Below the pieces are notes generated by a model, which saw only the letters and a list, made by a program, of their open reading frames with translations, made no database searches and was not told the DNA's origin. Positions 1,691-22,554 of a DNA stretch of 22,899 nt are shown in pieces. The position numbers and the translations under genes were made by a program. Where the stretch lies: the IMG/VR virus record IMGVR_UViG_3300022744_000345, positions 1-22,899 of that record; one strand, 5' to 3'. Positions within the stretch are counted from its first letter, which is position 1; every line of letters begins with the position of its first letter. Source of the stretch: a virus.

Positions 1691-4366
1691 ATGTACACTG
1701 AACATTGCGAAGAATGCCCCCTCAAGGGCAAGGCGGACGTTATCGATGGCAAGCCAAATGAAGATGCGCGGTTCATGGTTGTCACTGACGTACCGAATTT
1801 CAGGCCGGAGGCGTACGGGCGGCTGATGCCCCAGTCCTCCATAACGCTTTTCGCCAAGAGTATGAGCGGGGAGAAGTTCAACAAGGATGACTTCGTGTTC
1901 CAGCCGCAAGTACGCTGTCCGTACGACCCGGACCAATACACGACCAAAGAGAAGACCAAGATTCAGAAATGCTGCCGGCCTCACCTTGTCGCGACTATCC
2001 GTAAGCACAAGCCTGAAGTCATCATCCCGCTTGGCGTTGATCCGTCAAAGCAGGTATTCGGGCGGGCAGTCAAGATCACGAAGGTACGCGGTATCCCGGA
2101 CCGCACTGAGGAGTTCGGCAGGACAGTCGTCCTGCCTATGCTAAACCCTATGATGGTCGTGATGTACCCGCAGCACGAGGCTGTCTTCAAGGCAGACTGC
2201 GCCACGCTTGGTCGTCTTGTCGATCACGAATACGACATCACCCATTCCTCCAAGTCGGTACTGGGTGACTACGAGTTCATCGACGACCTCCAGTTCCTCA
2301 TCGACCAGAAGCCTAGCGTGATTGCGTACGATACAGAGAACACGGGTCTCCGTTGGTTCGCGCCGGATGCGAAGATACTAACAATGCAGTTCTGTACGGA
2401 GGCGGGCAAGGCGTATCTCCTACCATGGGACCACCCCGACAAGCCGCAGACCGCACGGGCCAAGATGCGCCTGAAGCGCCAGCTACGCCAGTTGCTTTGC
2501 GCGGAGGGGGTAACCGTTGTCGGCCAGAATGCCAAGTACGATGCTGTCTATACCTATGCGCAGACCGGTATCCGCTATCGTATCGGCGGGGACACGCTTA
2601 TGCTTGCGGCTCTACTGGATGAAAATACATACGCCAAAAACCTTGATGAGCTAGTCAAGCGTTTTGTACCCGAGATGGCAGGCTACGCAGATCGCTTCAA
2701 CGCTACTGTGGACAAGTCGAAGATGATCGAGCTACCTCTGGATCAGGACTTCCTAGACTACGGTTGCGGGGACGCGGATTCCACCTTTCGCCTGTATAAC
2801 GTACTCTACGACATGCTCTGCGAGGACCCAAAGCTGGTCACCCATTACGAGAAGGTCACGCTACCGGGGCTCAACGCGTTTGCCTCTGTTGAGCTACGTG
2901 GCCTGTACATCGATGAGGCGCAGGTGGAGACCTTTGAGGCGTTCATGGAGGAGCGTGTTGATGGCATGCGCAAGAGCTTGCTGGGGCAGATTCCAAAGTC
3001 TATCAAGCGTAAGCACCTTGACCTAGCGGTAGAGAAGGCGGGTGGCAAACCAGTCTCCGTTGATGAGGCATTGAAGTTCAGCAAGAAAGGATTCCTGCTA
3101 GATATCCTCTTCTACCACCCGGATGGTTTCTGCTTGAAGCCCAAGGTCTTCACGAAGACGACGACCAAGCTGGACAAGACGCGGCAGGTACCGTCCCTGT
3201 CAACCAAGGACCACCTTCCCTACTTCTACGACACCTGTCCGTTTACCTACGAGCTATCTGAGTACATCAAGTCTGAGCGCATTCTGGGCACGAACGTCAA
3301 GGGGTTCAAAAAGAAGTACATCGTGGAGGCTATGGTCAGGCCGACCTATAACTTGCATGTCGCGGTGACGGGGCGCACTTCGTCGGAGGACCCTAACGGT
3401 CAGAACTTCCCGAAGCGGGGGCCGATTGCTATGGCGTACCGGAAGATGTTCGTCGCGCCGCCCGGACACTTTGTGATCGAGGCCGACTTGTCGCAGGCCG
3501 AGCTACGTATCGCGGGCGACATGGCGAACGACCCTACCATGATCGGTATCTACCGTAGTGCGGGCGACATCCACACGGCTACTGCCTTGATCGTTATGGG
3601 CGTCACCATGGAGCAGTTCCGCGAACTCGACAAGAAGGTACAGAAAGACGCACGGACCAAGGCTAAGGCCGTGAACTTCGGATTCCTCTACGGCATGGGT
3701 TGGCGGAAGTTTATCGGCTACGCCAAGACGCAGTACGGCGTGGAGTTTACCGAGAAGGAAGCGCAGCGCATTCGTACCCAGTTCTTTGAGAAGTACTACA
3801 AGCTGCCGGAATGGCACGCCACCATGCGCGAGTACGCCCGGAGGAACAAGTTCGTGCGCTCGTACTCAGGTCGCGTACGCCACCTCCCGATGATCGACTC
3901 CCCGGACGAGATGACTCAGCAGGAAGCGGAGCGGCAAGCCATCAACTCCCCAGTGCAGGAGTTCGGTTCCAGCCTAGGCGTTATGGCTTGCGGGCGGCTC
4001 AACGAGGAGATTGATCCGCAGTACCTACAGCTTGTCGGGTTCGTCCATGACGCTATCTACTGCTACGTCCCGAAGGAGTACGTTGAATGGGGGGCGAAGA
4101 CGCTGCGTTGGTACATGGAGTCCAACCCGCTTGAGGATTGGTTCAAGCGCAAGATGAAGCTGCCGATTGTCGCCGACGTAGGCTTTGGTCTCAACCTGTC
4201 CGAGGTATTTGAGATGGGAGAGTTCGAGATTGACGATCCGGTAGGCACATACGCCTTTGGCAAGTTGTGGGAGGAGGACCCGGAGAAGGGGCTCATCGTC
4301 CCGGCGCAGAAGGTACCGCCACACAACGGACTTATCGACGGCAGCATCTACACTCGTGCAGCTTGA
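1691..4366 (+). CDS. Family A DNA polymerase with UDG-like N-terminal domain and 3'-5' exonuclease
   Basis: The 891-residue replicative polymerase has three parts. Residues 1-195 resemble family 4 uracil-DNA glycosylase, with the cysteine pattern C6, C9, C76, C94/C95 that holds a 4Fe-4S cluster in that family. The glycosylase motifs are degenerate (no GEAPG, and LNPMM where the HPS motif should be), so the domain is probably structural. A DEDD-type proofreading exonuclease follows, with D214/E216 (AYDTENTGL), VVGQNAKYD, and DYGCGDADST. The polymerase domain has motif A DLSQAELR (D599), motif B ending NFGFLYG (662-668) and motif C VHDAIY (H786, D787). The same order is known from phage SPO1-type polymerases. 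GAGG lies seven bases before the ATG. All catalytic residues are present. Confidence 0.95.
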   Translation: MYTEHCEECPLKGKADVIDGKPNEDARFMVVTDVPNFRPEAYGRLMPQSSITLFAKSMSGEKFNKDDFVFQPQVRCPYDPDQYTTKEKTKIQKCCRPHLVATIRKHKPEVIIPLGVDPSKQVFGRAVKITKVRGIPDRTEEFGRTVVLPMLNPMMVVMYPQHEAVFKADCATLGRLVDHEYDITHSSKSVLGDYEFIDDLQFLIDQKPSVIAYDTENTGLRWFAPDAKILTMQFCTEAGKAYLLPWDHPDKPQTARAKMRLKRQLRQLLCAEGVTVVGQNAKYDAVYTYAQTGIRYRIGGDTLMLAALLDENTYAKNLDELVKRFVPEMAGYADRFNATVDKSKMIELPLDQDFLDYGCGDADSTFRLYNVLYDMLCEDPKLVTHYEKVTLPGLNAFASVELRGLYIDEAQVETFEAFMEERVDGMRKSLLGQIPKSIKRKHLDLAVEKAGGKPVSVDEALKFSKKGFLLDILFYHPDGFCLKPKVFTKTTTKLDKTRQVPSLSTKDHLPYFYDTCPFTYELSEYIKSERILGTNVKGFKKKYIVEAMVRPTYNLHVAVTGRTSSEDPNGQNFPKRGPIAMAYRKMFVAPPGHFVIEADLSQAELRIAGDMANDPTMIGIYRSAGDIHTATALIVMGVTMEQFRELDKKVQKDARTKAKAVNFGFLYGMGWRKFIGYAKTQYGVEFTEKEAQRIRTQFFEKYYKLPEWHATMREYARRNKFVRSYSGRVRHLPMIDSPDEMTQQEAERQAINSPVQEFGSSLGVMACGRLNEEIDPQYLQLVGFVHDAIYCYVPKEYVEWGAKTLRWYMESNPLEDWFKRKMKLPIVADVGFGLNLSEVFEMGEFEIDDPVGTYAFGKLWEEDPEKGLIVPAQKVPPHNGLIDGSIYTRAA

Positions 4367-4417
4367 ACGCACATAGCTGGGCCCGTATGATCGGGTTATC
4401 GCAAACAGGAGAGCATC

Positions 4418-7213: not shown

Positions 7214-8773
7214 ATGGTAGAACTTTCGAGTTGCATTTGGGTACCTGCGAAAGAGTTCGACGCATTGATGGCGGAGCGTTTGACCGTCAATGTGTTCAAG
7301 CTCAGCAGCAAGCCTGATGAAGAACCCGAGCGGGTCGAGTGCTTCCGGGAAGATCGTAAGGGCTACGTTGGTCTCCCGCGTGTATTCGGTTTGAAATTGA
7401 TTTCAATGCAGGGCGTGGCGGATCGGCGGGCGGAGGGCCTACCGGTTACGTTCCCGAAGAGGATCAAGCTGCGCGATTACCAAGAGCCGTTTGTTGAGTC
7501 CATGGTGGATGCTACCTATACACGTACCGACTTCATAGCGCAGGCCGCTACGGGTAAAGGGAAGACGGTATGCGGGCTGGCGGTCGTTCAGCGGCTAGGA
7601 CGGAATGCAGCTATCGTCGTTGACCAAGAGAACCTACTAGACCAGTGGGTAGAACGTTGCGTGGAGCATCTAGGTATAGAGAAGTCTGACATCGGTATCG
7701 TTCGCGGCCCGAAGGCTACCTATGAAGATAAGCCTATTACGATCTGCATGATGCAGACTCTGACCCGCCGTGAGCTTCCGGACGAGTTCTTCAACCACTT
7801 CGGCATCGTCATCTTTGATGAGTGCCACACGACAGGTGCGCCGACCTTCTCCAAGGTGTTGATGAAGTTTAGCGCCAAGGTGCGTTTTGGTCTATCCGCG
7901 ACGCCCGAGCGCCGGGACGATCTTAAGAAGGTCATTGCGTGGAATCTCGGGACGGTGGATGTCAAGCTGACTGACACCCCGGAGAGGTCATCGGTTTACG
8001 TACTAGAGAGCGAAGGTACGTACTCGTGGCGCGTTAACAACTCAAAAATGGTGGGCGGTTTTGTGAATGAGGTCGCAGAGGATGGGCGGCGCAACCTGCT
8101 AATCGTACAGGCAGTTAAGTGGCTCTACGAGTCTGGGCGGGACGTTCTGGTCATTGGTGATCGAGTAGAGCATCTATGTTCGCTCATGGCACTGTCTGAG
8201 GCGTCAGGCGTACCGAAGGCCGACCTAGGGCTGTACGCAAAGTCTCGAACAGTATTCGTATATGAGAAAGACCCGAGACCACCTAGACGCCCGGATCACT
8301 GGGAGAAAGGGACAGAGTACTCCCCCATCCGTCTTGCCTTGGTGCAGAAAACGATACCAAAAAAGCACCTTGAGGAGGTTAAGCAGCGGGCGCGGGTCAT
8401 CTTCGCTACGTATGGTATTATGGCCAAAGGCGTTGACATTCCAAGGCTTTCAGCCGGAGTGGACGCAACCCCACGCAGCGAAGCTACACAAGTTCATGGT
8501 CGTACTTTACGGACGGCACCGGGGAAGCTACGCCCCATCTGGGTAACTATCGCTGATATCAATTCGTTTCGGTCTCTTTACCAGTTGTCCAACAGGTTAG
8601 GTGACTATGAAGCCAGCAACGCAGAGGTGTTCTTATGGGATTTCAACAAAGGAAGAAAACGACTAGAGGTGAGGACCTACCGCAAGGACCTCGCAAGCCG
8701 CATATCGCTCCTCCGCCAAAGCCAGATCATAATGAGCTTAGACGGAAACAACGTCCTCGTCCCGAAGACATGA
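7214..8773 (+). CDS. SF2 DEAD/DEAH-type helicase, UvsW-like
   Basis: A 519-residue ATP-dependent helicase, probably a branch-migration or recombination helicase like T4 UvsW. It has the Q-like lead-in IKLRDYQEPF, Walker A ATGKGKT (K117), motif Ia/Ib region IVVDQENLLDQW, Walker B DECH (202-205) and motif III SAT (228-230). The second RecA lobe includes DVLVIGDRVEHL, FATYGIMAKGVDIPRLS (motif V) and a VHGRTLR segment in place of the usual QxxGRxxR. Residues 1-85 form an extra N-terminal domain. AAGGTGAG precedes the ATG. The last 139 bases overlap another frame that starts at 8635, and its stop overlaps the ATG at 8770. The C-terminal tail may therefore have been changed by insertion of the homing endonuclease gene. 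Palindrome site 3 lies in the N-terminal part. Confidence 0.9.
   Translation: MVELSSCIWVPAKEFDALMAERLTVNVFKLSSKPDEEPERVECFREDRKGYVGLPRVFGLKLISMQGVADRRAEGLPVTFPKRIKLRDYQEPFVESMVDATYTRTDFIAQAATGKGKTVCGLAVVQRLGRNAAIVVDQENLLDQWVERCVEHLGIEKSDIGIVRGPKATYEDKPITICMMQTLTRRELPDEFFNHFGIVIFDECHTTGAPTFSKVLMKFSAKVRFGLSATPERRDDLKKVIAWNLGTVDVKLTDTPERSSVYVLESEGTYSWRVNNSKMVGGFVNEVAEDGRRNLLIVQAVKWLYESGRDVLVIGDRVEHLCSLMALSEASGVPKADLGLYAKSRTVFVYEKDPRPPRRPDHWEKGTEYSPIRLALVQKTIPKKHLEEVKQRARVIFATYGIMAKGVDIPRLSAGVDATPRSEATQVHGRTLRTAPGKLRPIWVTIADINSFRSLYQLSNRLGDYEASNAEVFLWDFNKGRKRLEVRTYRKDLASRISLLRQSQIIMSLDGNNVLVPKT
7392..7405. repeat. Palindrome site 3 (TGAAATTGATTTCA)
   Basis: Identical to sites 1 and 2. It lies 178 bases inside the SF2 helicase gene, the farthest of the seven from a start codon. 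The reading frame again gives Leu-Lys-Leu-Ile-Ser, the same frame as sites 2, 6 and 7. Confidence 0.85.
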
Positions 8774-9267
8774 TAGGTCTAGTTTTTGGCAGACTTACTG
8801 TACTTTCGTTCTCTGGTCGTGACGCTACCGGTCATGCTACTTTTACCTGCCTATGTAGTTGCGGAAAGGAGAAGCAGGCACTAGGTAGTAACCTAACGAA
8901 AGGTTCTACTAAATCTTGCGGATGTTTATCATCTGAAGTAACTACTATACGAAACTTTAAGCATGGTTTGAGTGCACACCCGCTACATGCTATTTGGTCT
9001 AGCATGCTTGAGCGTTGCTTCAATCGAGATAACCCAAGTTACCCTAACTACGGAGCTAGAGGGATTACGGTATGTTCTCGCTGGCTTGAGTTTATTAACT
9101 TCTATAACGATATGTCTATCTCTTACTTACCGGGACTATCTATAGAGCGTATGGATAATGATAAAGGGTATGCTCCCGGAAACTGCAAATGGGCTACAGC
9201 AAAGGAACAAGCTAATAACCGCAGGCCGAGGGCTTATTATAGAAAACCAGTACTGAGGGCAGCATAA
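8635..9267 (+). CDS. Putative HNH/AP2-type homing endonuclease
   Basis: A 210-residue protein. Residues 46 onward match a common phage selfish-endonuclease pattern: MIGLVFGRLTVLSF, then a Cys cluster (CLCSCG, SCGC), then GARGITVCSRWL and a C-terminal block containing ERMDNDKGY, NCKWAT and EQANNRR. Such proteins cut a DNA target and spread their own gene. The first 45 residues are different. They contain RKPH....KPDHNELRR, which is repeated at the start of the next gene, so they appear to be the captured 5' end of that gene. The start at 8635 has GAGGTG five bases upstream. A second ATG at 8770 overlaps the helicase stop (ATGA) and would give the nuclease alone (165 residues). The core is visibly more A/T-rich than its neighbours, a sign of transfer. 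Confidence 0.75.
   Translation: MGFQQRKKTTRGEDLPQGPRKPHIAPPPKPDHNELRRKQRPRPEDMIGLVFGRLTVLSFSGRDATGHATFTCLCSCGKEKQALGSNLTKGSTKSCGCLSSEVTTIRNFKHGLSAHPLHAIWSSMLERCFNRDNPSYPNYGARGITVCSRWLEFINFYNDMSISYLPGLSIERMDNDKGYAPGNCKWATAKEQANNRRPRAYYRKPVLRAA
8692..8751 (+). repeat. Imperfect direct repeat, copy 1
   Basis: Twenty codons, at the 5' end of the endonuclease reading frame, whose translation matches 16 of 20 residues at 9285-9344. DNA identity is 41 of 60, and most differences are at third codon positions. The longest exact match is CATAATGAGCTT (8728-8739). Codon choice here is like the surrounding phage genes (19 G/C in the first 30 bases). Confidence 0.8.
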
Positions 9268-14528: not shown

Positions 14529-14561
14529 ATGGGGGCGCACTGTCGCCCCCATTTTTGTTTT
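14529..14561 (+). terminator. Intrinsic terminator after Ala/Lys-rich gene
   Basis: ATGGGGGCG and CGCCCCCAT form a 9-bp stem with loop CACTGT (14529-14552), followed by TTTTGTTTT. It starts 21 bases after the stop codon. The next gene starts at 14572, so there is no space for a promoter between them. Confidence 0.88.
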
Positions 14562-14571
14562 AGGAGCTAGC

Positions 14572-15261
14572 ATGGCTACAACGCGCAAGCGCACCCGCGC
14601 AGCGGGAACGCCCACCAAAGACCACAAGGTGTCCTTGGAGTACATGGACATCAACTCACTGGTCCCGTACGACTGGAACCCCCGCGACAATGCGGCGGCA
14701 GTAGATTCGGTAGCAGCTTCGATTGCCAACTTTGGCTTCCTTATCCCCGTAGTAGTCGATGGCGAGAACGTGCTTGTCGCCGGCCACACGCGGGTCGAGG
14801 CGGCGAAGAAGCTAGGCATGGCGGAGGTCCCCGCTATTCGTGCCGGCCACCTCAGCGACACTCAGATCAACGCCTTCCGCCTTATCGATAACAAGGTTGC
14901 CGAGATGGCGAAGTGGGACTTCGATCTACTCTCCGGTGAAATCGCCAAGCTGCAGGACTCCGGGCTCACGCTTACCGACTTTGGCTGGACGCGGGAAGAG
15001 TTGGATTGCCTTACCGATATGGTCAAGGATGACTGCCTATCCAGCGATGGGTTAGTTGACCTAGAGTCGCAGGAGCGTATCCGCCGTACGGAACGCCGCG
15101 CCCCAGCAACTGCACGCTTCGTCCTAGGGGAGTTGGTCTTCTTCATTCAGGCCAGCGACTACCGCAACTGGGTTGACGGGATACGGACCCTGCACGACTA
15201 CAACGAGGCAGACATCACGGCCGACCTGAAGCGGAGGCTCGGCATCACGGAGTCGACATAA
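14572..15261 (+). CDS. ParB/sulfiredoxin-fold domain protein
   Basis: A 229-residue protein. The ParB N-terminal-type domain covers about residues 20-110: INSLVPYDWNPRDN, IANFGFLIPVVVDG and the phosphate-binding AGHTR (70-74) before VEAAKKLGMAEVPAI. A LSDTQINAFRLIDNKVAEMAKWD segment follows, as in many phage and plasmid ParB-domain proteins. There is no ParB-type helix-turn-helix domain for centromere binding. In phages such stand-alone domains are usually thought to be nucleases, NTPases or methyltransferase partners. It follows a strong terminator but has AGGAG six bases before the ATG. The second, larger ParB-domain protein lies one gene downstream, so the two may act together. Confidence 0.82.
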   Translation: MATTRKRTRAAGTPTKDHKVSLEYMDINSLVPYDWNPRDNAAAVDSVAASIANFGFLIPVVVDGENVLVAGHTRVEAAKKLGMAEVPAIRAGHLSDTQINAFRLIDNKVAEMAKWDFDLLSGEIAKLQDSGLTLTDFGWTREELDCLTDMVKDDCLSSDGLVDLESQERIRRTERRAPATARFVLGELVFFIQASDYRNWVDGIRTLHDYNEADITADLKRRLGITEST

Positions 15262-15611
15262 TGCCCCACCCCAACGGACGCCCAACGAGTGCCGAGTTGA
15301 TTGCTCGCGCCGACGCACATAGAGCGGAGGCCGCAGAGCGGCAGGCATGGTTTGACGCTGCGTATGCGGCGGCGGTAGCCTTCGCTCAACGGACCTCCGT
15401 ATTTGAGGGCGGGGAAGTCACTCAAGCCTGCCGCGATGCAGGAGTCGGGGAGCCGAGACACAGCAACCATTGGGTGACTCTAATCACGCTACTGGAGAGG
15501 GATGGGGTAACGTCCAAGGGCGAGTACAACATGGCTACTACGGTATCAGTCGCGGCGCATGGAAGTCGATCTGTGCGCCGTTGGACATCCAACGTCTACC
15601 GGGCGGGATAA
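15261..15611 (+). CDS. Small unknown phage protein, possibly winged helix
   Basis: A 116-residue protein. A long charged helix (residues 9-45) is followed by a short domain that could be a winged helix (FEGGEVTQACRDAGVGEP, HSNHWVTLITLLERDG, then SRSVRRWTSNVYRAG). Phages often encode small proteins with this order of elements, but I cannot name a family. The ATG overlaps the ParB-domain gene stop by one base, and its stop overlaps the next start (TAATG), so the three genes form one translational unit. Confidence 0.65.
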   Translation: MPHPNGRPTSAELIARADAHRAEAAERQAWFDAAYAAAVAFAQRTSVFEGGEVTQACRDAGVGEPRHSNHWVTLITLLERDGVTSKGEYNMATTVSVAAHGSRSVRRWTSNVYRAG

Positions 15612-17113
15612 TGAAATCGATTTCAATGGTAAAGGCAGTACCGATTGCGGACTTGTACCCGGACAACGCGAACCCGCGCAAGCCCGATCAAGCCCGGATG
15701 GCGCTGCTCCGCTTGAGCATTCAGAAGCTAGGCTTCATCATGCCGGTCTACGCTACCGACGACGGCATGCTGCTCTCCGGGCACCAGCGCCTCACTGTAG
15801 CCAAGAGTCTCGGACTCACTACGGTACCCACCATCCGCGTCAAGCTGAAAGAGGCAGATATCAAGGGCATCAACATCCTGTTCAACCGCGCCACGAATGA
15901 CTTCAGCGCATTCGATACGGGGCTCAAAGCCTCAGAGCGCTTGCACTACGCCGATGTGCTTGAGGCGGCGGAGGAGCTACCAGACTTTGAGGGAGAGGAC
16001 TTCTATGCCCTTAAGGCTGTGGACACAAACCTACGCGGACTCGGTAGCGAGGACGGTAGCCGATACGATAAGAAGGCAGCAGTCATGGCTGAGAACATGC
16101 TACGACTGGGTATCCACATTCCTATCGTCATGTCGGAGTCGGGGCGGGTAGTCAACGGTATTCACCGACTGTTCAGCGCCAAGGAACACAACGTCAAGAC
16201 ATGGCCGGTGGTTACTATCCCCGACGAGTTCGCGGATGTTGCCCTGACCTTCCTCAACTATCTTTCGATGGACTTCCATGTCGATGATGAGTTCGCCTCT
16301 GTACTCCGGTACTCAGCCTACCGTAGACCCCAGAATAACCGTGGCGCTGTACCGAAGGCTTACCGGTTCTGGGCTAACGGGTGTCGAACTTTGCTCGACG
16401 CTGATTCGTATTCGGTTGATTACTGGCGACACTTTAGGGACATGCACGGACAGTCTCTCATTGATTTCGGGGCAGGACTATGCAAGGTCGCCCCGTTTCT
16501 GCGGGACAAAGGGATGGACTGTATTGACTTCGAGCCGTACCGGATCGACTTCGAGAAGGATAAGGGGAAGCCATGCCCTATCCTGTCTAAACAGGAGGCT
16601 AGACGCTTCCTTGATGAAGTGGCGGATGGCCGACGCTTTACGAGCATCTTCCTTGCCTCAGTCCTTAACTCTATTCCGTTCCCAAAAGATCGGATGGCGG
16701 TACTCGCAATCGTGCACGCGCTCTCGTCTAAGGACACGGTGATCTACGGTACCTGCCGCGACATTACTGACTTCAACTACGAGTACGGAGGCATCCGCAA
16801 CGCCAACTACTTCGTGTTTGATTCGGAGCCCGGAGTCCGGGTGGGGGATGTAGTCAAGAACCCGAAGATTCAGAAGTTCCATACGCAGGAGGAGGCTGAC
16901 GCCATGTTCTCCCGGCTCTGGAACAAGCGGGAGTATTGGCCGGGAGGCAACGTCTTCTATTTCAAGCTGTCGTCGCCCAAGGGTATCAACCCAAAGGTAG
17001 TAGCGTCAGCACTAGAATTGGAGTTCGATCTGCCATACGCGGATGGAACAACAATGGACTTGGTGGAACACGCCAAGATTTGTTTTGGTAAACGGTTAAA
17101 GGTGAAACTATGA
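15611..17113 (+). CDS. Double ParB-domain and SAM-methyltransferase fusion
   Basis: A 500-residue protein with three modules. Residues 8-85 are a ParB/sulfiredoxin domain (NANPRKPDQ and SGHQRL with G57-R60). Residues 150-205 are a second, shorter ParB-like unit (LRLGIHIPIVMSESGRVVNG, IHRLF near H185). From about 280 to 500 the sequence looks like a class I SAM-dependent methyltransferase, with motif I IDFGAGLCKVAPFL (D285) and the acidic end of strand 2 in CIDFEPY. A catalytic DPPY/NPPY motif of DNA-adenine enzymes is not seen, so the target is open. ParB-methyltransferase fusions occur in mobile elements. The start at 15611 is in a TAATG overlap. An upstream in-frame ATG at 15470 is rejected. 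The gene begins with palindrome site 6. Confidence 0.75.
   Translation: MKSISMVKAVPIADLYPDNANPRKPDQARMALLRLSIQKLGFIMPVYATDDGMLLSGHQRLTVAKSLGLTTVPTIRVKLKEADIKGINILFNRATNDFSAFDTGLKASERLHYADVLEAAEELPDFEGEDFYALKAVDTNLRGLGSEDGSRYDKKAAVMAENMLRLGIHIPIVMSESGRVVNGIHRLFSAKEHNVKTWPVVTIPDEFADVALTFLNYLSMDFHVDDEFASVLRYSAYRRPQNNRGAVPKAYRFWANGCRTLLDADSYSVDYWRHFRDMHGQSLIDFGAGLCKVAPFLRDKGMDCIDFEPYRIDFEKDKGKPCPILSKQEARRFLDEVADGRRFTSIFLASVLNSIPFPKDRMAVLAIVHALSSKDTVIYGTCRDITDFNYEYGGIRNANYFVFDSEPGVRVGDVVKNPKIQKFHTQEEADAMFSRLWNKREYWPGGNVFYFKLSSPKGINPKVVASALELEFDLPYADGTTMDLVEHAKICFGKRLKVKL
15612..15625. repeat. Palindrome site 6 (TGAAATCGATTTCA, perfect)
   Basis: A perfect palindrome that starts at the second base of the start codon of the ParB-methyltransferase gene. 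Protein bound here would cover the initiation region in DNA. Codons read Met-Lys-Ser-Ile-Ser. Confidence 0.85.
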
Positions 17114-17619
17114 GCGACCAAAAGATTGAGCAAATGATTCAAGAGAAGGGGCTAACGGCACCCCGTGTCACGCCGGCTGACATCGAGGCGAACATCGTCG
17201 GCGAGTATTTCTTCACGGCAGAGCAGGCCGTGTCCGGATTCAACAAGGGCATGGTCGACCGCTTCCTCGCCTGGAAGCTGCCGGCGGATTTCGCGCCGGA
17301 CGCTGGCATTTCGTTCGGCCCGAAGTATGAACATGATAGCCCGCACTGGCCGAGTGGCACGAACCTCCTGCATGCAGGGCAGGCTAAGGAAATGCTGGAG
17401 CATGTCGTCGGCGGCGCTCCTGTTCTTCCTCCGCTCTTCCTCCTGACCTTCTGCGTCCTCGTCCTGCGCAATGGCTTTACGGTGACTGGGGAGTCGGCTT
17501 GTGCCAGCCCGGAGAACTTCGATGAGGAGGTCGGTCGCAAGGTAGCCCGCCAGAATGCGGTACAGAAAGTTTGGCCGCTGATGGGCTACGCCTTGCGTGA
17601 CCGGCTGGCAGGAGGCTAA
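17110..17619 (+). CDS. N4 gp49 / Sf6 gp66-like phage protein
   Basis: A 169-residue protein. The C-terminal half carries the signature of the N4 Gp49/Sf6 gene 66 family: LTFCVLVLRNGFTVTGESAC, NFDEEVGRKVARQNAV and VWPLMGYALRDRL. The N-terminal half is a separate segment (MVDRFLAWKLPADFAPDAGI, WPSGTNLLHAGQAKEMLEHV) that also occurs in other phage proteins. The family's function is not established as far as I know. AAAGGTGA lies a few bases before the ATG, which overlaps the upstream stop (ATGA). Confidence 0.75.
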   Translation: MSDQKIEQMIQEKGLTAPRVTPADIEANIVGEYFFTAEQAVSGFNKGMVDRFLAWKLPADFAPDAGISFGPKYEHDSPHWPSGTNLLHAGQAKEMLEHVVGGAPVLPPLFLLTFCVLVLRNGFTVTGESACASPENFDEEVGRKVARQNAVQKVWPLMGYALRDRLAGG

Positions 17620-17620
17620 C

Positions 17621-17941
17621 ATGGCTATCAATCTGAAACCCGCCGAAGGTAGAATTGTTCTGGGTCGGGCGCGGACCACGGAGTTCTTCCCTTGGTATGA
17701 GAAAGCAGGCATCATTACCCGTATCGCCGGGAAGCGCATCTACTACAAAGACGGCGAGGGTAACGAGAAGTTTCTGCATGAGTACGCCTGCATCGTTGAC
17801 ACCACAGAGGAAGAAGAAGCGCTGCTCGACTTCTCCGCTCGCGGGCGGGAGAAGGTAAAGGCCCTTAAGCAGGAGCTAGCGGACGAGGCTATCATCGTAG
17901 CCGCCCCTACACCCGTACGTAGGACCCGCAAGCGTAGTTAG
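17621..17941 (+). CDS. Small unknown phage protein
   Basis: A 106-residue protein. AGGAGG lies five bases before the ATG at 17621, one of the best Shine-Dalgarno matches in the window. An upstream in-frame ATG at 17597 is rejected because it lies inside the previous gene. The N-terminal 65 residues (EFFPWYEKAGIITRIAGKRI, YYKDGEGNEKFLHEYACIVD) suggest a small beta-rich domain. The C-terminus is a charged helix that ends in basic residues (RRTRKRS). It is the last gene before the leader hairpin at 17950. I cannot assign a function. Confidence 0.7.
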   Translation: MAINLKPAEGRIVLGRARTTEFFPWYEKAGIITRIAGKRIYYKDGEGNEKFLHEYACIVDTTEEEEALLDFSARGREKVKALKQELADEAIIVAAPTPVRRTRKRS

Positions 17942-18011: not shown

Positions 18012-18749
18012 ATGTCTGTTGACGCGACATTCGGTGATCCCGTTCACTATCCGAAAAGGCGTGACCTGTTTTCGTTCGACGACGAAGTAGCTTCGATCTT
18101 CGATAACATGGCACCCCGTAGCATTCCGATGTACCTTGAGGTGCACCGCTTGCACGTTTCACTATTTGAGCATGTGTTCCGGGAGGGTGCGGTCATCGCA
18201 GATATTGGTTCGTCTACCGGTCATCTGTTCCGCAGCATCGAGAAGAGCTTCGGTCATTCGATACCGGACATGGGCATGAAGGCCGTAGCGCTTGATGTAT
18301 CCCAGCCGATGATGGACCGGCTAGCCTCAGAGTTTCCGTACGTCACTGGCTTGGTTGGCGACATTACCAACATGCCTGACTTGGATGAGCCTACGGACAT
18401 TATGTTTTGCCTCTACACCTTGCAGTTCATCTCCCCCGAGGGCAAGGTCAAGGCTATGGAGTGGCTAGTCCGGAACCTCAAGGTTGGCGGTGTGTTGATT
18501 CTCGGGCAGAAAGAAGTCATTCGCAATGTCGCATTGCGTGAACTCTTCGATGAGGAGTACTATAAATTCCGTAGGGACAACGGCTACACGCAAGCCGAGA
18601 TCGACGCGAAAACTGCTGCCCTGCGGAACTCTATGTGGCCCATAGAGCATGAGGTGCTGACTGCCATGCTCAACTTGCACCACATGGACTGCGTTGAGAC
18701 CTCTCGCTGGCTGCAGTTCAGCACGGTAGCCTGCATTAGGAGAAAATGA
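18012..18749 (+). CDS. CmoA-like SAM-dependent methyltransferase
   Basis: A 245-residue class I methyltransferase. Its order of motifs follows CmoA, the bacterial enzyme that makes carboxy-SAM for tRNA wobble uridine: FSFDDEVASIFDNMAPRSIP, motif I IADIGSSTGH, ALDVSQPMMDR, LYTLQFISPEGK, FRRDNGYTQAEIDAKTAALR. Against the E. coli sequence as I remember it, the arginine that binds the carboxylate (R199, in SQKR) is Thr here (DAKT). A carboxy-SAM synthase role is therefore doubtful, and an ordinary methyltransferase is more likely. Its substrate is unknown. Translation is probably controlled by the leader hairpin just upstream. The ATG at 18012 follows GGGGAGG. Confidence 0.75.
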   Translation: MSVDATFGDPVHYPKRRDLFSFDDEVASIFDNMAPRSIPMYLEVHRLHVSLFEHVFREGAVIADIGSSTGHLFRSIEKSFGHSIPDMGMKAVALDVSQPMMDRLASEFPYVTGLVGDITNMPDLDEPTDIMFCLYTLQFISPEGKVKAMEWLVRNLKVGGVLILGQKEVIRNVALRELFDEEYYKFRRDNGYTQAEIDAKTAALRNSMWPIEHEVLTAMLNLHHMDCVETSRWLQFSTVACIRRK

Positions 18750-19543
18750 TGGCCGATGAAGCAACTGATGAACCGCGCCGCAGGCGCATGCACAACCGGC
18801 GCTCTGCCGGTATGGCGTTCAGCGGTAACAGCATGAGCCAGTCGTCGCAAGGCGGTGGGGTAGCGGATGGCGAGGAGGCTGTTGAAGGACCCATCGAGGA
18901 CCTTAACGCCGTAGTCGCTGCGTCTGTACCGCCCACACGCAGGCTGTCCGAAGACGAGCAGTCTGACATGGTTCGTAACACGGTCAACTCTGAGGAGTTC
19001 ACGCCGCAGAACCGGCTGGCTCAGGTGCGTAACCGCTCCAGCGAGTATGAGCGCGAGTACCGCCTTCAGCTACTGCATCGTCTCTTGATGCGCAACCTAC
19101 CGCTGGACGAGATTGCTTCGCAGCTAGGCGTTTCAGTGTCCACTGTTATGCGGGACCGGCAGGAGCTTAAGGAACGACTGCGCGAAGTAGCAAAGCAGAT
19201 GGATGTCGAGATGATGATCGGCAACTCCAAAGGCTTCTACGAAGAGGTGCAGGCCATGGCTATGCGAGCGGCTTCCTCAAGCACTGTACCTATGCCTATG
19301 AGGCTTGCAGCTATGCGTACAGCCCTCGCCTCGCACAACGACATGCACCGCTTCTTCCAAGCAGCCGGTGTCTATGATGTCCTCCGCTTCCGCAAGGGCG
19401 CTAACGAAGGCGCACAGACCGACATCCAGCGCCTCATGTCGCTGACCGAAGACTTGCTTGCCGAGGCTCGCCATGACCGCCGTAGCGGCGGGGACGCACT
19501 AGGCGACTTCTCCGGTACAGACTCAGAGGTAATGGACCTATGA
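18749..19543 (+). CDS. Probable terminase small subunit
   Basis: A protein of about 264 residues directly upstream of the large terminase, which is the usual place for the subunit that recognises viral DNA. Residues 1-75 are low-complexity and charged. Residues about 110-145 hold a helix-turn-helix (LLMRNLPLDEIASQLGVSVS, TVMRDRQELKERL). The rest is helical (FYEEVQAMAMRAAS and following), consistent with oligomerisation. It has no ATPase motif. The second of two adjacent ATGs (18746 and 18749) is chosen because AGGAG is six bases away. The stretch TTAGGAGAAAATGATG before it is the same as at the SSB start. The assignment comes from position and the DNA-binding motif. Another DNA-binding protein is possible. 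Confidence 0.65.
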   Translation: MADEATDEPRRRRMHNRRSAGMAFSGNSMSQSSQGGGVADGEEAVEGPIEDLNAVVAASVPPTRRLSEDEQSDMVRNTVNSEEFTPQNRLAQVRNRSSEYEREYRLQLLHRLLMRNLPLDEIASQLGVSVSTVMRDRQELKERLREVAKQMDVEMMIGNSKGFYEEVQAMAMRAASSSTVPMPMRLAAMRTALASHNDMHRFFQAAGVYDVLRFRKGANEGAQTDIQRLMSLTEDLLAEARHDRRSGGDALGDFSGTDSEVMDL

Positions 19544-22500
19544 CTGAAGCGCGACGTACTCGCACCCGCCCCGGCTCAACTTTGAAATCGATTTCACGAC
19601 GAGAAGAAGAGGTACTGGCGCGGGCGCGGGAGGCAGCACAAGGCTTCGAGAACAAGATGTTCGCGGAGATGTATGTCGAGTCACTGGAGCGAAAGATTCG
19701 CAATGACGATGACGCCCTGTACAAGTTCATGCACCACCTTGAGCAGCCACCCGTGGACATCGAGACCTTCCTTGATGACCCAGAGTTCCTAGGCTCGACC
19801 GACTTGACGATGTGGCCGGAGGTGCGGGCTACCGTTATAGCTATCAACAAGGATTGGTGGAAGGGGCTAGACAGCGGCGCGAACATCGAAGCTATCCTCA
19901 TGGGCGCGACGGGTACAGGTAAGTGTCTTGCCAAGGGCACGCTAGTGCTCATGTTTGATGGTAGGGTGTTGCCTGTAGAGGAAGTACAGATAGGCGATAG
20001 ACTTATGGGGCCGGACTCAACGCCGCGCACGGTGCTATCGTTAGCAACTGGGCAGGAGGAGATGTTCAGGGTTACCCCAGCTAAAGGCAGGCCATATACT
20101 GTGAATCGCAGTCATATACTAAGCCTCAAGATTACCAATATGGGCGTAGGTAAGGGTTATGGTAAGACCGTATTAGCAGGCAACGGTCAGAAGTACCGTA
20201 GCGGCGACACCGTAAACATATCCATCGATGATTACCTAGCTTCGTCAAAAACTTTCAAGCATGTAGCTAAAGGATGGCGGGTTGGGGTAGAGTTTCAAGA
20301 AGCAGACCCACTACCCGTAGACCCCTACTTTGTAGGTCTTTGGCTTGGCGACGGGTGCAGCCGAGATATCCACATCTTTAACGAGGATGAGGAGGTTATA
20401 AGCTACCTGCGCAGCTATGCAGCGACGCTAGGTCTATGGCTAAATACGCTGTCTATAGAGGGAAAGTGCCGTAGGCACAGCATCCGAGCTACGCTGCGCG
20501 GCAACCACAATAGACTTCTTGCTATGATGCAAGGTATCGGACTATGCAACGGCACTAAAACGATACCACACACCTACCTAACGGCCTCGCGGGAAGACAG
20601 ACTATCGTTACTCGCTGGATTGATTGACTCTGACGGCTATAACGACACAAGCGGTGCCGGCTACGAGGTATCTACGATACTACCGGAGCTACGCGACGGA
20701 ATTGCCTACCTAGCTGGGTCTCTTGGGTATTGTGTTACATGGTCGGAAAAGCACGCTAAGGCACAGAACGGTAACGGGCAGTTGGCGTATCGTATGTACA
20801 TCTCTGGCAATGTACATGAGATACCATGCCGTATAGCCAGAAAACGTAAGGTACAAGGGAATACGTTACGTGACTCACAGCTTACGGGTATCACGGTATC
20901 GTCTGCAGGAGCCGGGGAGTACTTCGGCTTTACCATAGACGGAGATAGACTCTTCTTGCTTGGCGACTTTACGGTTACGCATAACACCACGTTATGTATC
21001 GTCACCACGCTCTACCATACGCATATCGTAGGGTGCCTCAAGGTACCGCAGGCGGTATACGGCCTACCCAAGGCTACCTCCATCGTCTTCCCTATCATGG
21101 CGGCAAAGCCGCACGTAACGAAGAAGGTGGTCTACCAGCCGCTGCGCAAGACCATTGAGGATATCCCTTGGTTCCAGAAGCACATGCAACTGGACAAGTT
21201 GGTCGAGTCTGAAATCTACTTCAAGGACAAGAACGTTCGTATCGCTGTGGGCGGGGCGGACGCTGACTCCATCCTAGGTGAAGCCGTTATCGGCGGGATC
21301 ATCGACGAAATCAACTTTATGAACGTGGTTCTCAAGTCGAAGAAGGCTGAGGTCACGAGTGGTCGGGCGGGTATGTACGACCAAGCCCAGACGATCTATG
21401 AAGCAATGACGCGACGGAAGAAGTCCCGCTTCATTACGCAAGGCCCGCAGATTGGTATCGTCATGGTGTCGTCCTCCACCCGCTACAAGGGTGACTTCAC
21501 CGACAAGCGGAAGGAACACGTAGACAAGGTGGGCGAGAAGGGCGTCTATATCTACAACAAGAAGCAGTACGAAGTCTGGCCGAAGGATCGTTACTGCGGC
21601 AAGACCTTCCGCCTCTTAGTAGGCAACGATGTACTTACTGACACCCGCGTACTGGAGGATGAAGAGGTAGTGCAGGAGGGCTCTCTAGTCCTTGACGTAC
21701 CTACCGAGTACCGCGATGACTTCCTGAAGAACCCGCACGATGCGCTACGCGATATTGTCGGCATGTCTACCAGTTCAGTCTCTCCGTTCTTCCGTCGCCG
21801 CTTCAAGATCATGGAGTGCATCACGGCGGGCGAGGAAGAGGGGCTACAGTCTTTCCTACTGAAGGATAATGTGATCCTAGGGGTAGACGGCATGCCTACC
21901 GTAAAGACAGGACACTACTGCATGAACCCGTCCCGTCCACGCTACGTCCATATCGACTTGTCCCTGACCGGCGACAGATGCGGAGTGGCTATGCTACGAT
22001 TCGATGGCCTACAGAAAGTTGAGCGCGAGGGCGGTATGATCGAAAGCCTACCCGAGTGCAGCGTAGAGCTAGCCATGACGGTAGAGCCAGACACCCAGAA
22101 TGAAATTCAAATTGCCGAAGTCCGGATGTGGGTCAAGCAACTCCGCGACATCTACGGCTACCCTATCAAGGTCGTGACGTACGACGGCTTCATGTCCACC
22201 GAGTCTCGCCAGCAGTGGAAGAAGGAAGGCATGAAGACCGGCCACGTGTCGGTTGACAAAACCTCTGTGCCGTATAAGCAATTCCGTGACGCAATCAATG
22301 ACCGCCGTATCAAGATGTTCCAGAATGATGTGCTTGTTTCTGAGCTATTCGAGTTGGAGTACGATACGGTTAAGGACAAGATTGACCACCCGCCCAAGGG
22401 TAGCAAGGACTTGGCTGACGCCGTATGCGGCGCGTACTCCACGCTTGTCGAGCGTAGGTCGTCTTGGATGCCTGCCGCCAGCGATGACGAGCAGTACGCC

Positions 22501-22554
22501 ATGAGCGAGCGCCGCGACTTCCAAGAAAGGTACGATGCACCGCGATTTGTGTAG
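19540..22554 (+). CDS. Terminase large subunit with intein
   Basis: The 1004-codon frame encodes a packaging motor with an intein inside it. Without the intein, the terminase has about 650 residues. Walker A is MGATGTGK|TT, split by the intein after the Lys. Walker B is GGIIDEINF, and VMVSSSTRYKGD is a likely coupling motif. The C-terminal nuclease has metal-binding acids in YVHIDLSLTGDRCG, VVTYDG and SKDLADAVCG. The ATPase pushes DNA into the capsid and the nuclease cuts the concatemer. Splicing is needed to rebuild Walker A, so the intein controls whether the motor works. The ATG overlaps the small subunit stop (ATGA). Palindrome site 7 is 43 bases inside the gene. Confidence 0.93.
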   Translation: MTEARRTRTRPGSTLKSISRREEEVLARAREAAQGFENKMFAEMYVESLERKIRNDDDALYKFMHHLEQPPVDIETFLDDPEFLGSTDLTMWPEVRATVIAINKDWWKGLDSGANIEAILMGATGTGKCLAKGTLVLMFDGRVLPVEEVQIGDRLMGPDSTPRTVLSLATGQEEMFRVTPAKGRPYTVNRSHILSLKITNMGVGKGYGKTVLAGNGQKYRSGDTVNISIDDYLASSKTFKHVAKGWRVGVEFQEADPLPVDPYFVGLWLGDGCSRDIHIFNEDEEVISYLRSYAATLGLWLNTLSIEGKCRRHSIRATLRGNHNRLLAMMQGIGLCNGTKTIPHTYLTASREDRLSLLAGLIDSDGYNDTSGAGYEVSTILPELRDGIAYLAGSLGYCVTWSEKHAKAQNGNGQLAYRMYISGNVHEIPCRIARKRKVQGNTLRDSQLTGITVSSAGAGEYFGFTIDGDRLFLLGDFTVTHNTTLCIVTTLYHTHIVGCLKVPQAVYGLPKATSIVFPIMAAKPHVTKKVVYQPLRKTIEDIPWFQKHMQLDKLVESEIYFKDKNVRIAVGGADADSILGEAVIGGIIDEINFMNVVLKSKKAEVTSGRAGMYDQAQTIYEAMTRRKKSRFITQGPQIGIVMVSSSTRYKGDFTDKRKEHVDKVGEKGVYIYNKKQYEVWPKDRYCGKTFRLLVGNDVLTDTRVLEDEEVVQEGSLVLDVPTEYRDDFLKNPHDALRDIVGMSTSSVSPFFRRRFKIMECITAGEEEGLQSFLLKDNVILGVDGMPTVKTGHYCMNPSRPRYVHIDLSLTGDRCGVAMLRFDGLQKVEREGGMIESLPECSVELAMTVEPDTQNEIQIAEVRMWVKQLRDIYGYPIKVVTYDGFMSTESRQQWKKEGMKTGHVSVDKTSVPYKQFRDAINDRRIKMFQNDVLVSELFELEYDTVKDKIDHPPKGSKDLADAVCGAYSTLVERRSSWMPAASDDEQYAMSERRDFQERYDAPRFV
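19583..19596. repeat. Palindrome site 7 (TGAAATCGATTTCA, perfect)
   Basis: Identical to site 6 and located 43 bases inside the large terminase gene, upstream of the intein. The codons read Leu-Lys-Ser-Ile-Ser. Confidence 0.85.
19924..20985 (+). mobile_element. Intein with LAGLIDADG homing endonuclease
   Basis: A 354-residue in-frame intein starting with Cys (CLAKGTLVLM, block A) and ending in THN before Thr of the extein. Block B has VNRSH. The endonuclease blocks are FVGLWLGDG and LLAGLIDSDGY, the two LAGLIDADG helices. Block F/G is EYFGFTIDGD, then LFLLGDFTVTHN. All splicing residues (Cys1, block B His, terminal His-Asn, +1 Thr) are present, so it should splice itself out. The endonuclease looks intact, so it could still home into inteinless alleles. 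Codon use is richer in A/T-ending codons than in the exteins. Confidence 0.95.

Follow-up and report, generated by a model that had tools for sequence, protein, structure and literature searches.

The window analysed here, a 22.9-kb virus contig of 22,899 nt (IMG/VR record IMGVR_UViG_3300022744_000345), possesses a plus-strand gene cassette which encodes a stand-alone ParB-domain protein, a ParB-ParB-methyltransferase fusion protein and a CmoA-like protein. Three co-directional open reading frames (ORFs) at 14572-15261, 15261-15611 and 15611-17113 share TAATG overlaps at both joints and are translationally coupled. The first encodes the ParB-domain protein of 229 amino acids (PF02195, E 2.7e-7; phrog_620, E 1e-46), the second a protein of 116 amino acids and the third a protein of 500 residues, for which PBM is used as a working name. 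The 3' end of the PBM ORF overlaps the ORF starting at 17110 through ATGA. The CmoA-like gene is situated at 18012-18749, and its product (TIGR00740, E 4.6e-29; PDB 4gek, E 1.6e-19) is a proposed synthase of carboxy-S-adenosylmethionine (Cx-SAM). An earlier note on this DNA had described 14572-17113 as an overlapping three-gene unit beginning with a ParB-domain gene. The ParB assignment and the three coupled ORFs hold, but the middle gene is not conserved and the CmoA-like gene had been left out.

PBM matches PHROG 5475 over its full length (E 1e-124, residues 6-497). The fusion itself is thus already known, as a family without assigned function, and the many full-length matches in phages exclude a chance arrangement. 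It is composed of a ParB domain (residues ~1-112), a second ParB domain (~126-222), a class I S-adenosylmethionine (SAM)-methyltransferase domain (~226-460) and C-terminal helices. The N-terminal ParB domain was matched by Pfam in 51 of 54 family members. The Pfam match to Methyltransf_23 is weak in the window protein (E 0.012), and the same profile matches 27 of the 54 members (best E 4e-13). The AlphaFold2 model, built with 54 relatives, reached a predicted local distance difference test score (pLDDT) of 89.7 and a predicted template modelling score (pTM) of 0.87. On superposition of the model, the N-terminal domain fitted the CDP-bound ParB 6sdk (Z 12.2, root mean square deviation (rmsd) 1.4 over 93 residues), while residues ~222-460 fitted class I methyltransferases (Z 13.7), the top structures being the mycobacterial heterocyclic toxin methyltransferase 7bgg and human METTL6 (7ezg). 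The second ParB domain rests on sequence profiles and a matching order of strands and helices: hhalign aligned residues 126-222 with residues 1-112 at a probability of 96.7% (E 3.5e-10), and as a control the methyltransferase part gave no significant profile alignment with the ParB-like domains (E 0.27 and 0.075). Two ParB-like domains and a methyltransferase fold had been proposed for this protein before, with structure prediction as the suggested check, and both were recovered. The modelled methyltransferase fold covers the part after residue 280, where its absence would have refuted that proposal.

The SAM-binding motif I, D285-F-G-x-G289 (DFGAG), and the acidic E308 after strand 2 are invariant in 54 PBM sequences. 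Box I (N21-P-R) and Box II (G57-H-Q-R60) of the ParB fold are invariant across the family, and from these residues nucleotide binding by the ParB fold is plausible; a PNAS 2025 study (PMC12704722) describes the nucleoside triphosphate (NTP) specificity of the ParB-CTPase fold as unpredictable from sequence. The [DNS]PP[YFW] motif of the amino-DNA methyltransferases (N6A/N4C) was not found after strand 4, where SVLNS(I/V)PF stands at 350-357 instead, which agrees with the earlier remark that the fusion lacks the usual DNA-methylase motif. A conserved cysteine was also not found in the family alignment. The sequence thus points neither to the usual amino-methyltransferase chemistry nor to that of C5-cytosine enzymes. 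The segment NSIPF was considered as an NPPY-like motif and rejected, being closer to 'vlhHvpdp' of small-molecule methyltransferases and having no P and F in the PBM branch which lacks CmoA. Four basic residues, R233, R239, R361 (after the segment following strand 4) and K419, are invariant in 46 of 46 CmoA-linked PBMs, while none of eight CmoA-less PBMs is basic at those positions. Such a pattern would be expected if some of these residues read the extra carboxylate of Cx-SAM.

To understand the distribution of the cassette, 117 PBM loci from IMG/VR, GTDB genomes and phage records were compared. The ParB-PBM-CmoA arrangement recurs in phages of Pseudomonas, Aeromonas, Gordonia, Vibrio, Alphaproteobacteria, Desulfovibrionaceae, Clostridia and cyanobacteria. 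At least eight bacterial groups have phages with PBM, some of them culturable (phages of Pseudomonas aeruginosa), and the order ParB-PBM-CmoA-terminase is also found in Samunavirus of P. aeruginosa, Aeromonas HJ05 and Gordonia Evaa. ParB lies directly upstream of PBM in 88 of the 92 loci with room for it, and a CmoA-like gene lies downstream in 94-96 of the 117. By the strict count, with CmoA required within a distance window, 76 loci have it out of the 95 whose downstream sequence reaches 3 kb or more. Seven further loci have it outside that window (six with overlapping long ORFs, L022 at ~7 kb), and the remaining twelve are L046 of the main family and eleven distant Bacteroides-type loci. 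Every main-family locus with 3 kb or more downstream, except one, therefore carries a CmoA-like gene. The same gene order had been suggested as something to look for in other phages; ParB and PBM do recur, but the 116-amino acid gene does not, and the third member is the CmoA-like gene. The Bacteroides-type loci (L077-L086 and L006) form a distant PBM branch which possesses ParB, lacks CmoA and mostly lacks the ParB tail typical of PBM cassettes; this branch is probably a plain SAM enzyme.

In the phage system described by Yang et al. (PMC12783734), CmoA makes Cx-SAM, the C5-methyltransferase CmoX (SPPC motif, Arg350) carboxymethylates cytosine and the amide ligase CmoY adds glycine. ParB-domain proteins, with no role assigned, are often found near these genes (PMC12783734). 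The cassette of the window shares a CmoA homologue and the gene order with this 5-carboxymethylcytosine system of Synechococcus phage S-B43. Eighty CmoX loci were collected with the CmoX of TurkishDelight as query, and their order ParB-CmoX-(CmoY)-CmoA is the same layout as ParB-PBM-(HAD)-CmoA. The ParB core is alike in both systems, with identity up to 77% between L039 and L145. PBM, in contrast, belongs to a methyltransferase class unrelated to CmoX, with no SPPC motif and no conserved cysteine; the CmoX profile matched neither PBM nor anything else in the window. A CmoY-type amide ligase was likewise not found in the window. Such ligases are present in 38 CmoX loci (absent in about half) and in none of the 117 PBM loci, whereas a gene for a HAD protein, or nothing, takes the CmoY position in PBM cassettes (HAD in 56 PBM loci, in no CmoX locus), so the extra genes of the two systems do not mix.

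The CmoA proteins themselves are interchangeable between the two systems. In a tree of 176 CmoA sequences, PBM-linked and CmoX-linked members are intermixed in most subclades. Parsimony gave 18 partner changes, with a lower bound of 15 when weak nodes were collapsed; shuffled labels averaged 58. The reference loci L119-L123 were counted in the CmoX group, although no CmoX lies in the stretch covered for L120 and L121, which can affect the count only slightly. Independently of the tree, the contig L039 records an exchange. Its nt 1-396 (ParB core) and 2531-4388 (from the cmoA start codon into the terminase) share 88-94% identity with CmoX phages (among them L141, L145, L127, L144 and L177; one left flank reaches 82%), and the CmoA proteins of L039 and the CmoX contig L137 agree at 99%. 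In the middle of L039, a ParB tail, PBM and HAD replace the ParB tail and CmoX (with or without CmoY). By this sequence comparison, L039 is a natural replacement of CmoX by PBM. Two of the reference loci differ in their CmoX content. Streptomyces phage TurkishDelight (L122, 1677-6705), a culturable actinophage, carries a complete cassette of the CmoX type, in which a pair of ParB genes is lined up with a SPPC-containing CmoX, an asparagine-synthase/GATase fusion and CmoA. Erwinia phage Alexandra (L120, 2995-5694), a jumbo phage, has CmoA with a CmoY-like ligase nearby but no CmoX in the stretch covered.

The boundary of the L039 swap is situated between the core and the tail of the stand-alone ParB. 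In the window, the C-terminal tail of this protein (about residues 177-229) matched the tail profile of PBM cassettes (E 4e-19). The pattern 'Y..W...EI.RRLG' of this tail type was found in 95 of 105 PBM loci and in none of 76 CmoX loci, the ten PBM loci without it being mostly of the CmoA-less branch. The ParB of CmoX cassettes has instead a zinc-ribbon-like tail, CPxCGYxWSGK (75 of 76 CmoX loci; 0 of 105 PBM loci). Neither tail type ever crosses over to the other cassette, and we infer that the tail is a docking element for the transferase. The HAD protein of related cassettes has a predicted structure of high score (pLDDT 96.4) with the fold of T4 polynucleotide 3'-phosphatase (T4 Pnkp; Z 15.3, rmsd 2.2 to 5uj0). 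Only the fold search gave T4 Pnkp, as a profile sequence search against the PDB had no matches. Its first motif is atypical, with DxN where DxD is expected. The HAD gene was not found in the window or in its nearest group.

The CmoA-like protein of the window is homologous in fold and sequence to CmoA of the bacterial tRNA wobble pathway. In Escherichia coli CmoA the carboxylate is bound by Arg199 (PMC3663124). By E. coli numbering, the window protein has T199 with an arginine at 203; S-B43 CmoA, which is proven active, has E199 and R203, which softens the loss of Arg199 in the window protein. Many relatives have R199/E203, the alphaproteobacterial ones have neither arginine, and 49 CmoX-linked CmoAs lack both, so residue 199 is unreliable as a test of activity. 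Loss of Arg199 was therefore dropped as proof against a Cx-SAM synthase. Positions 199 and 203 appear to show a charge swap (R199/E203 against x199/R203), with a third type, KELSLxGxQRP, having neither, and each type occurs with both CmoX and PBM partners. Cx-SAM synthesis by the window's CmoA branch is likely. CmoA relatives are rare, being carried by 77-82 of 50,697 phage records. Among 18 whole records having PBM and CmoA, CmoB was found in none and a C5-methyltransferase was missing in 17, which leaves PBM as the only phage-encoded candidate user of Cx-SAM. Host CmoB could also use the Cx-SAM made by the phage.

The observed domains, folds, gene order, distribution, exchange with CmoX and matching of tails suggest that PBM is an alternative, non-C5 DNA transferase which uses Cx-SAM made by CmoA; the cofactor, the base and DNA as substrate are inferred, and we assign this reading a probability of about 0.6. 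By analogy with the CmoX system, which has the same gene order and a different enzyme in the key slot, the cassette probably makes an undescribed DNA modification. The CmoA-like enzyme would turn SAM into Cx-SAM. PBM would grip DNA by its paired ParB domains. It would probably do so as part of an NTP-dependent clamp which also includes the stand-alone ParB, the C-terminal tail of the latter docking on PBM. The methyltransferase domain would then move a carboxymethyl group (less likely a methyl group) onto a DNA base. The target position would not be cytosine C5, as PBM has neither a conserved catalytic cysteine nor the CmoX-type SPPC motif. In many relatives, though not in the window's group, the atypical HAD may process the product further, where the CmoX system has CmoY. 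The outcome may be phage DNA shielded from host restriction before packaging. The full proposal is more tentative, with chances somewhat below even: that PBM founds another class of phage DNA carboxymethyltransferase, independent of CmoX, which places a carboxymethyl group at a non-C5 position (e.g. on an exocyclic amine) and so makes an undescribed base. In this proposal HAD would act second in many phages, and the ParB tails would be modules which dock the transferase present in the cassette.

Several observations weigh against this interpretation. The closest folds of PBM are small-molecule and tRNA methyltransferases, not DNA enzymes. The CmoA-like protein scores under the TIGR00740 equivalog cut-off and lacks Arg199, Samunavirus CmoA has neither R199 nor R203, and the clade which holds the window's CmoA contains PBM partners only. 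The arginine and lysine pattern of the CmoA-linked PBMs may instead reflect shared ancestry. L039 is a single contig, and a search for a second contig with such a swap found none; it could in principle be an assembly error, which would require two false joins at functional boundaries, and the result of the CmoA tree is independent of this contig.

It is unlikely, though not negligibly so, that PBM is an ordinary ParB-guided SAM-dependent DNA (or RNA) methyltransferase and that the CmoA-like protein of this phage group no longer makes Cx-SAM, serving instead as a structural partner or as another SAM-dependent methyltransferase. T199 in the window, the relatives without R199 and R203, and the Bacteroides-phage PBMs, which work without CmoA and hence indicate that the family can use plain SAM, fit this explanation. 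The interchange with CmoX and the strict CmoA linkage in the main family speak against it, and the CmoX-linked CmoAs without both arginines make their absence a poor sign of lost activity. A PBM which modifies a protein or a small molecule as an anti-defence effector is improbable: the heterocyclic-toxin, METTL6 and glycine N-methyltransferase folds nearest to it and the missing DNA-methylase motif would suit such a role, but the tandem ParB domains, the stand-alone ParB partner and the likeness of the associated HAD to a polynucleotide 3'-phosphatase point to DNA, and PBM takes the place of CmoX, for which action on DNA is proven.

Equally improbable is that ParB and PBM tag or clamp pac/cos sites or the ends of concatemers for the terminase encoded next to them, any modification serving packaging and not protection. 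The cassette adjoins terminase genes of several unrelated types, and the cmoA-like, terS and terL genes of the window overlap one another. The variety of terminase types, however, speaks against a specific partnership; one large phage group has a RusA-like gene and others after CmoA and no terminase, and the CmoA and CmoX genes of S-B43 lie far from such a context. A plasmid-style partition system of a phage persisting as a plasmid was rejected as very improbable. The NPR and GHQR motifs of the ParB domains are intact, which would fit such a system, but the stand-alone ParB and PBM scored 27.8 and 18.8 bits with TIGR00180 against a cut-off of 58.45, Pfam and NCBIfam searches matched no helix-turn-helix (HTH) or dimerisation domain in either protein, and the partner is CmoA and not ParA. 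The suggestion of the earlier note that the unit may modify or mark DNA is thus supported by strong association, through the gene order and interchange shared with CmoX, but without the part given there to the middle gene and to a palindrome at the start codon.

The 116-amino acid protein, which the earlier note had counted in the unit, has no relatives in phages, Pfam, PHROGs or NCBIfam, nor at any of the 117 related loci. Close relatives carry other small genes in its slot, and it was rejected as a cassette component on both grounds. In the close relative L010, the slot between ParB and PBM holds a MarR-like gene and a restriction-alleviation gene of the Lar family (7731-7997; PF14354, E 6e-7), which suggests that the slot collects anti-restriction genes. 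The palindrome is only a 6-base GCTAGC (an NheI-like site) where the ribosome would bind. Further upstream, a strong inverted repeat (14529-14552) with a run of T's after it belongs to an ordinary intrinsic terminator of the upstream gene (14529-14560, plus strand; a stem of 9 pairs, 7 of them GC, then TTTTGTTTT), which separates that gene from the cassette. A regulatory site was rejected, as these two elements explain the palindrome.

PBM has been described before under other names. The ParB-Methyltransf_23 fusions of PHROG 5475 (PMC12704722) have the same family and architecture, and the SEA-PHAGES label 'ParB-N-terminal-like domain methyltransferase' (phage Evaa) refers to the same family. 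Neither source assigns a function or connects the family with CmoA, CmoX or a stand-alone ParB, and the text covered mentions no second ParB domain. Phage ParB-DNA methylase fusions (PHROG 498, PADLOC MTase_II) have a related N-terminal ParB (E 8e-25, PBM residues 5-105), but the methyltransferase domain of PBM is unrelated to theirs and lacks [DNS]PP[YF]; known defence-system models gave only generic MTase_II ParB matches in the window. Compared with bacterial CmoA, the window protein has its presumed carboxylate-binding arginine at 203 and not at 199, and the phage records lack CmoB. What appears to be new is the membership of PBM in a CmoA cassette interchangeable with CmoX. No paper joining PBM with CmoA was found in a literature search which covered a minority of subscription journals and no preprints.

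The other genes downstream of PBM are also encoded on the plus strand. Between PBM and the CmoA-like gene lie a Phage gp49/gp66-family protein (17110-17619; PF13876, E 2.7e-29), which is found near the cassette in one locus only and is not conserved in it, and a small protein without assigned function (17597-17941), found in three loci which are all nearest relatives (L008-L010). Compared with its Pfam and PHROG profiles, the gp49/gp66-family protein has an apparent insertion of ~65 residues. The CmoA-like gene is followed by genes for the terminase small subunit (18746-19543; HTH, its order with the large subunit conserved in L004 and L007) and the terminase large subunit (19540-22554), which contains an intein according to intein-type hits. 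The PA_L9 terminase matches the large subunit on either side of the insert, at residues of about 128-469. The intein sits directly after the Walker A motif (GATGTGKC), where relatives such as PA_L9 have no insert. Further upstream, an HNH-type endonuclease-like ORF at 8635-9267 shares ~140 bases, read in a different frame, with the end of the helicase gene (7214-8773) and is possibly a homing-endonuclease insertion.

PBM may represent a second class of phage DNA carboxymethyltransferases, and this proposal can be tested. As an abundant candidate non-C5 enzyme, it gives a function to test to a phage protein family which had none. The change of the ParB tail along with the transferase would explain why ParB proteins adjoin such enzymes, and the model predicts an undescribed modified base which can be searched for directly in phages already in collections.

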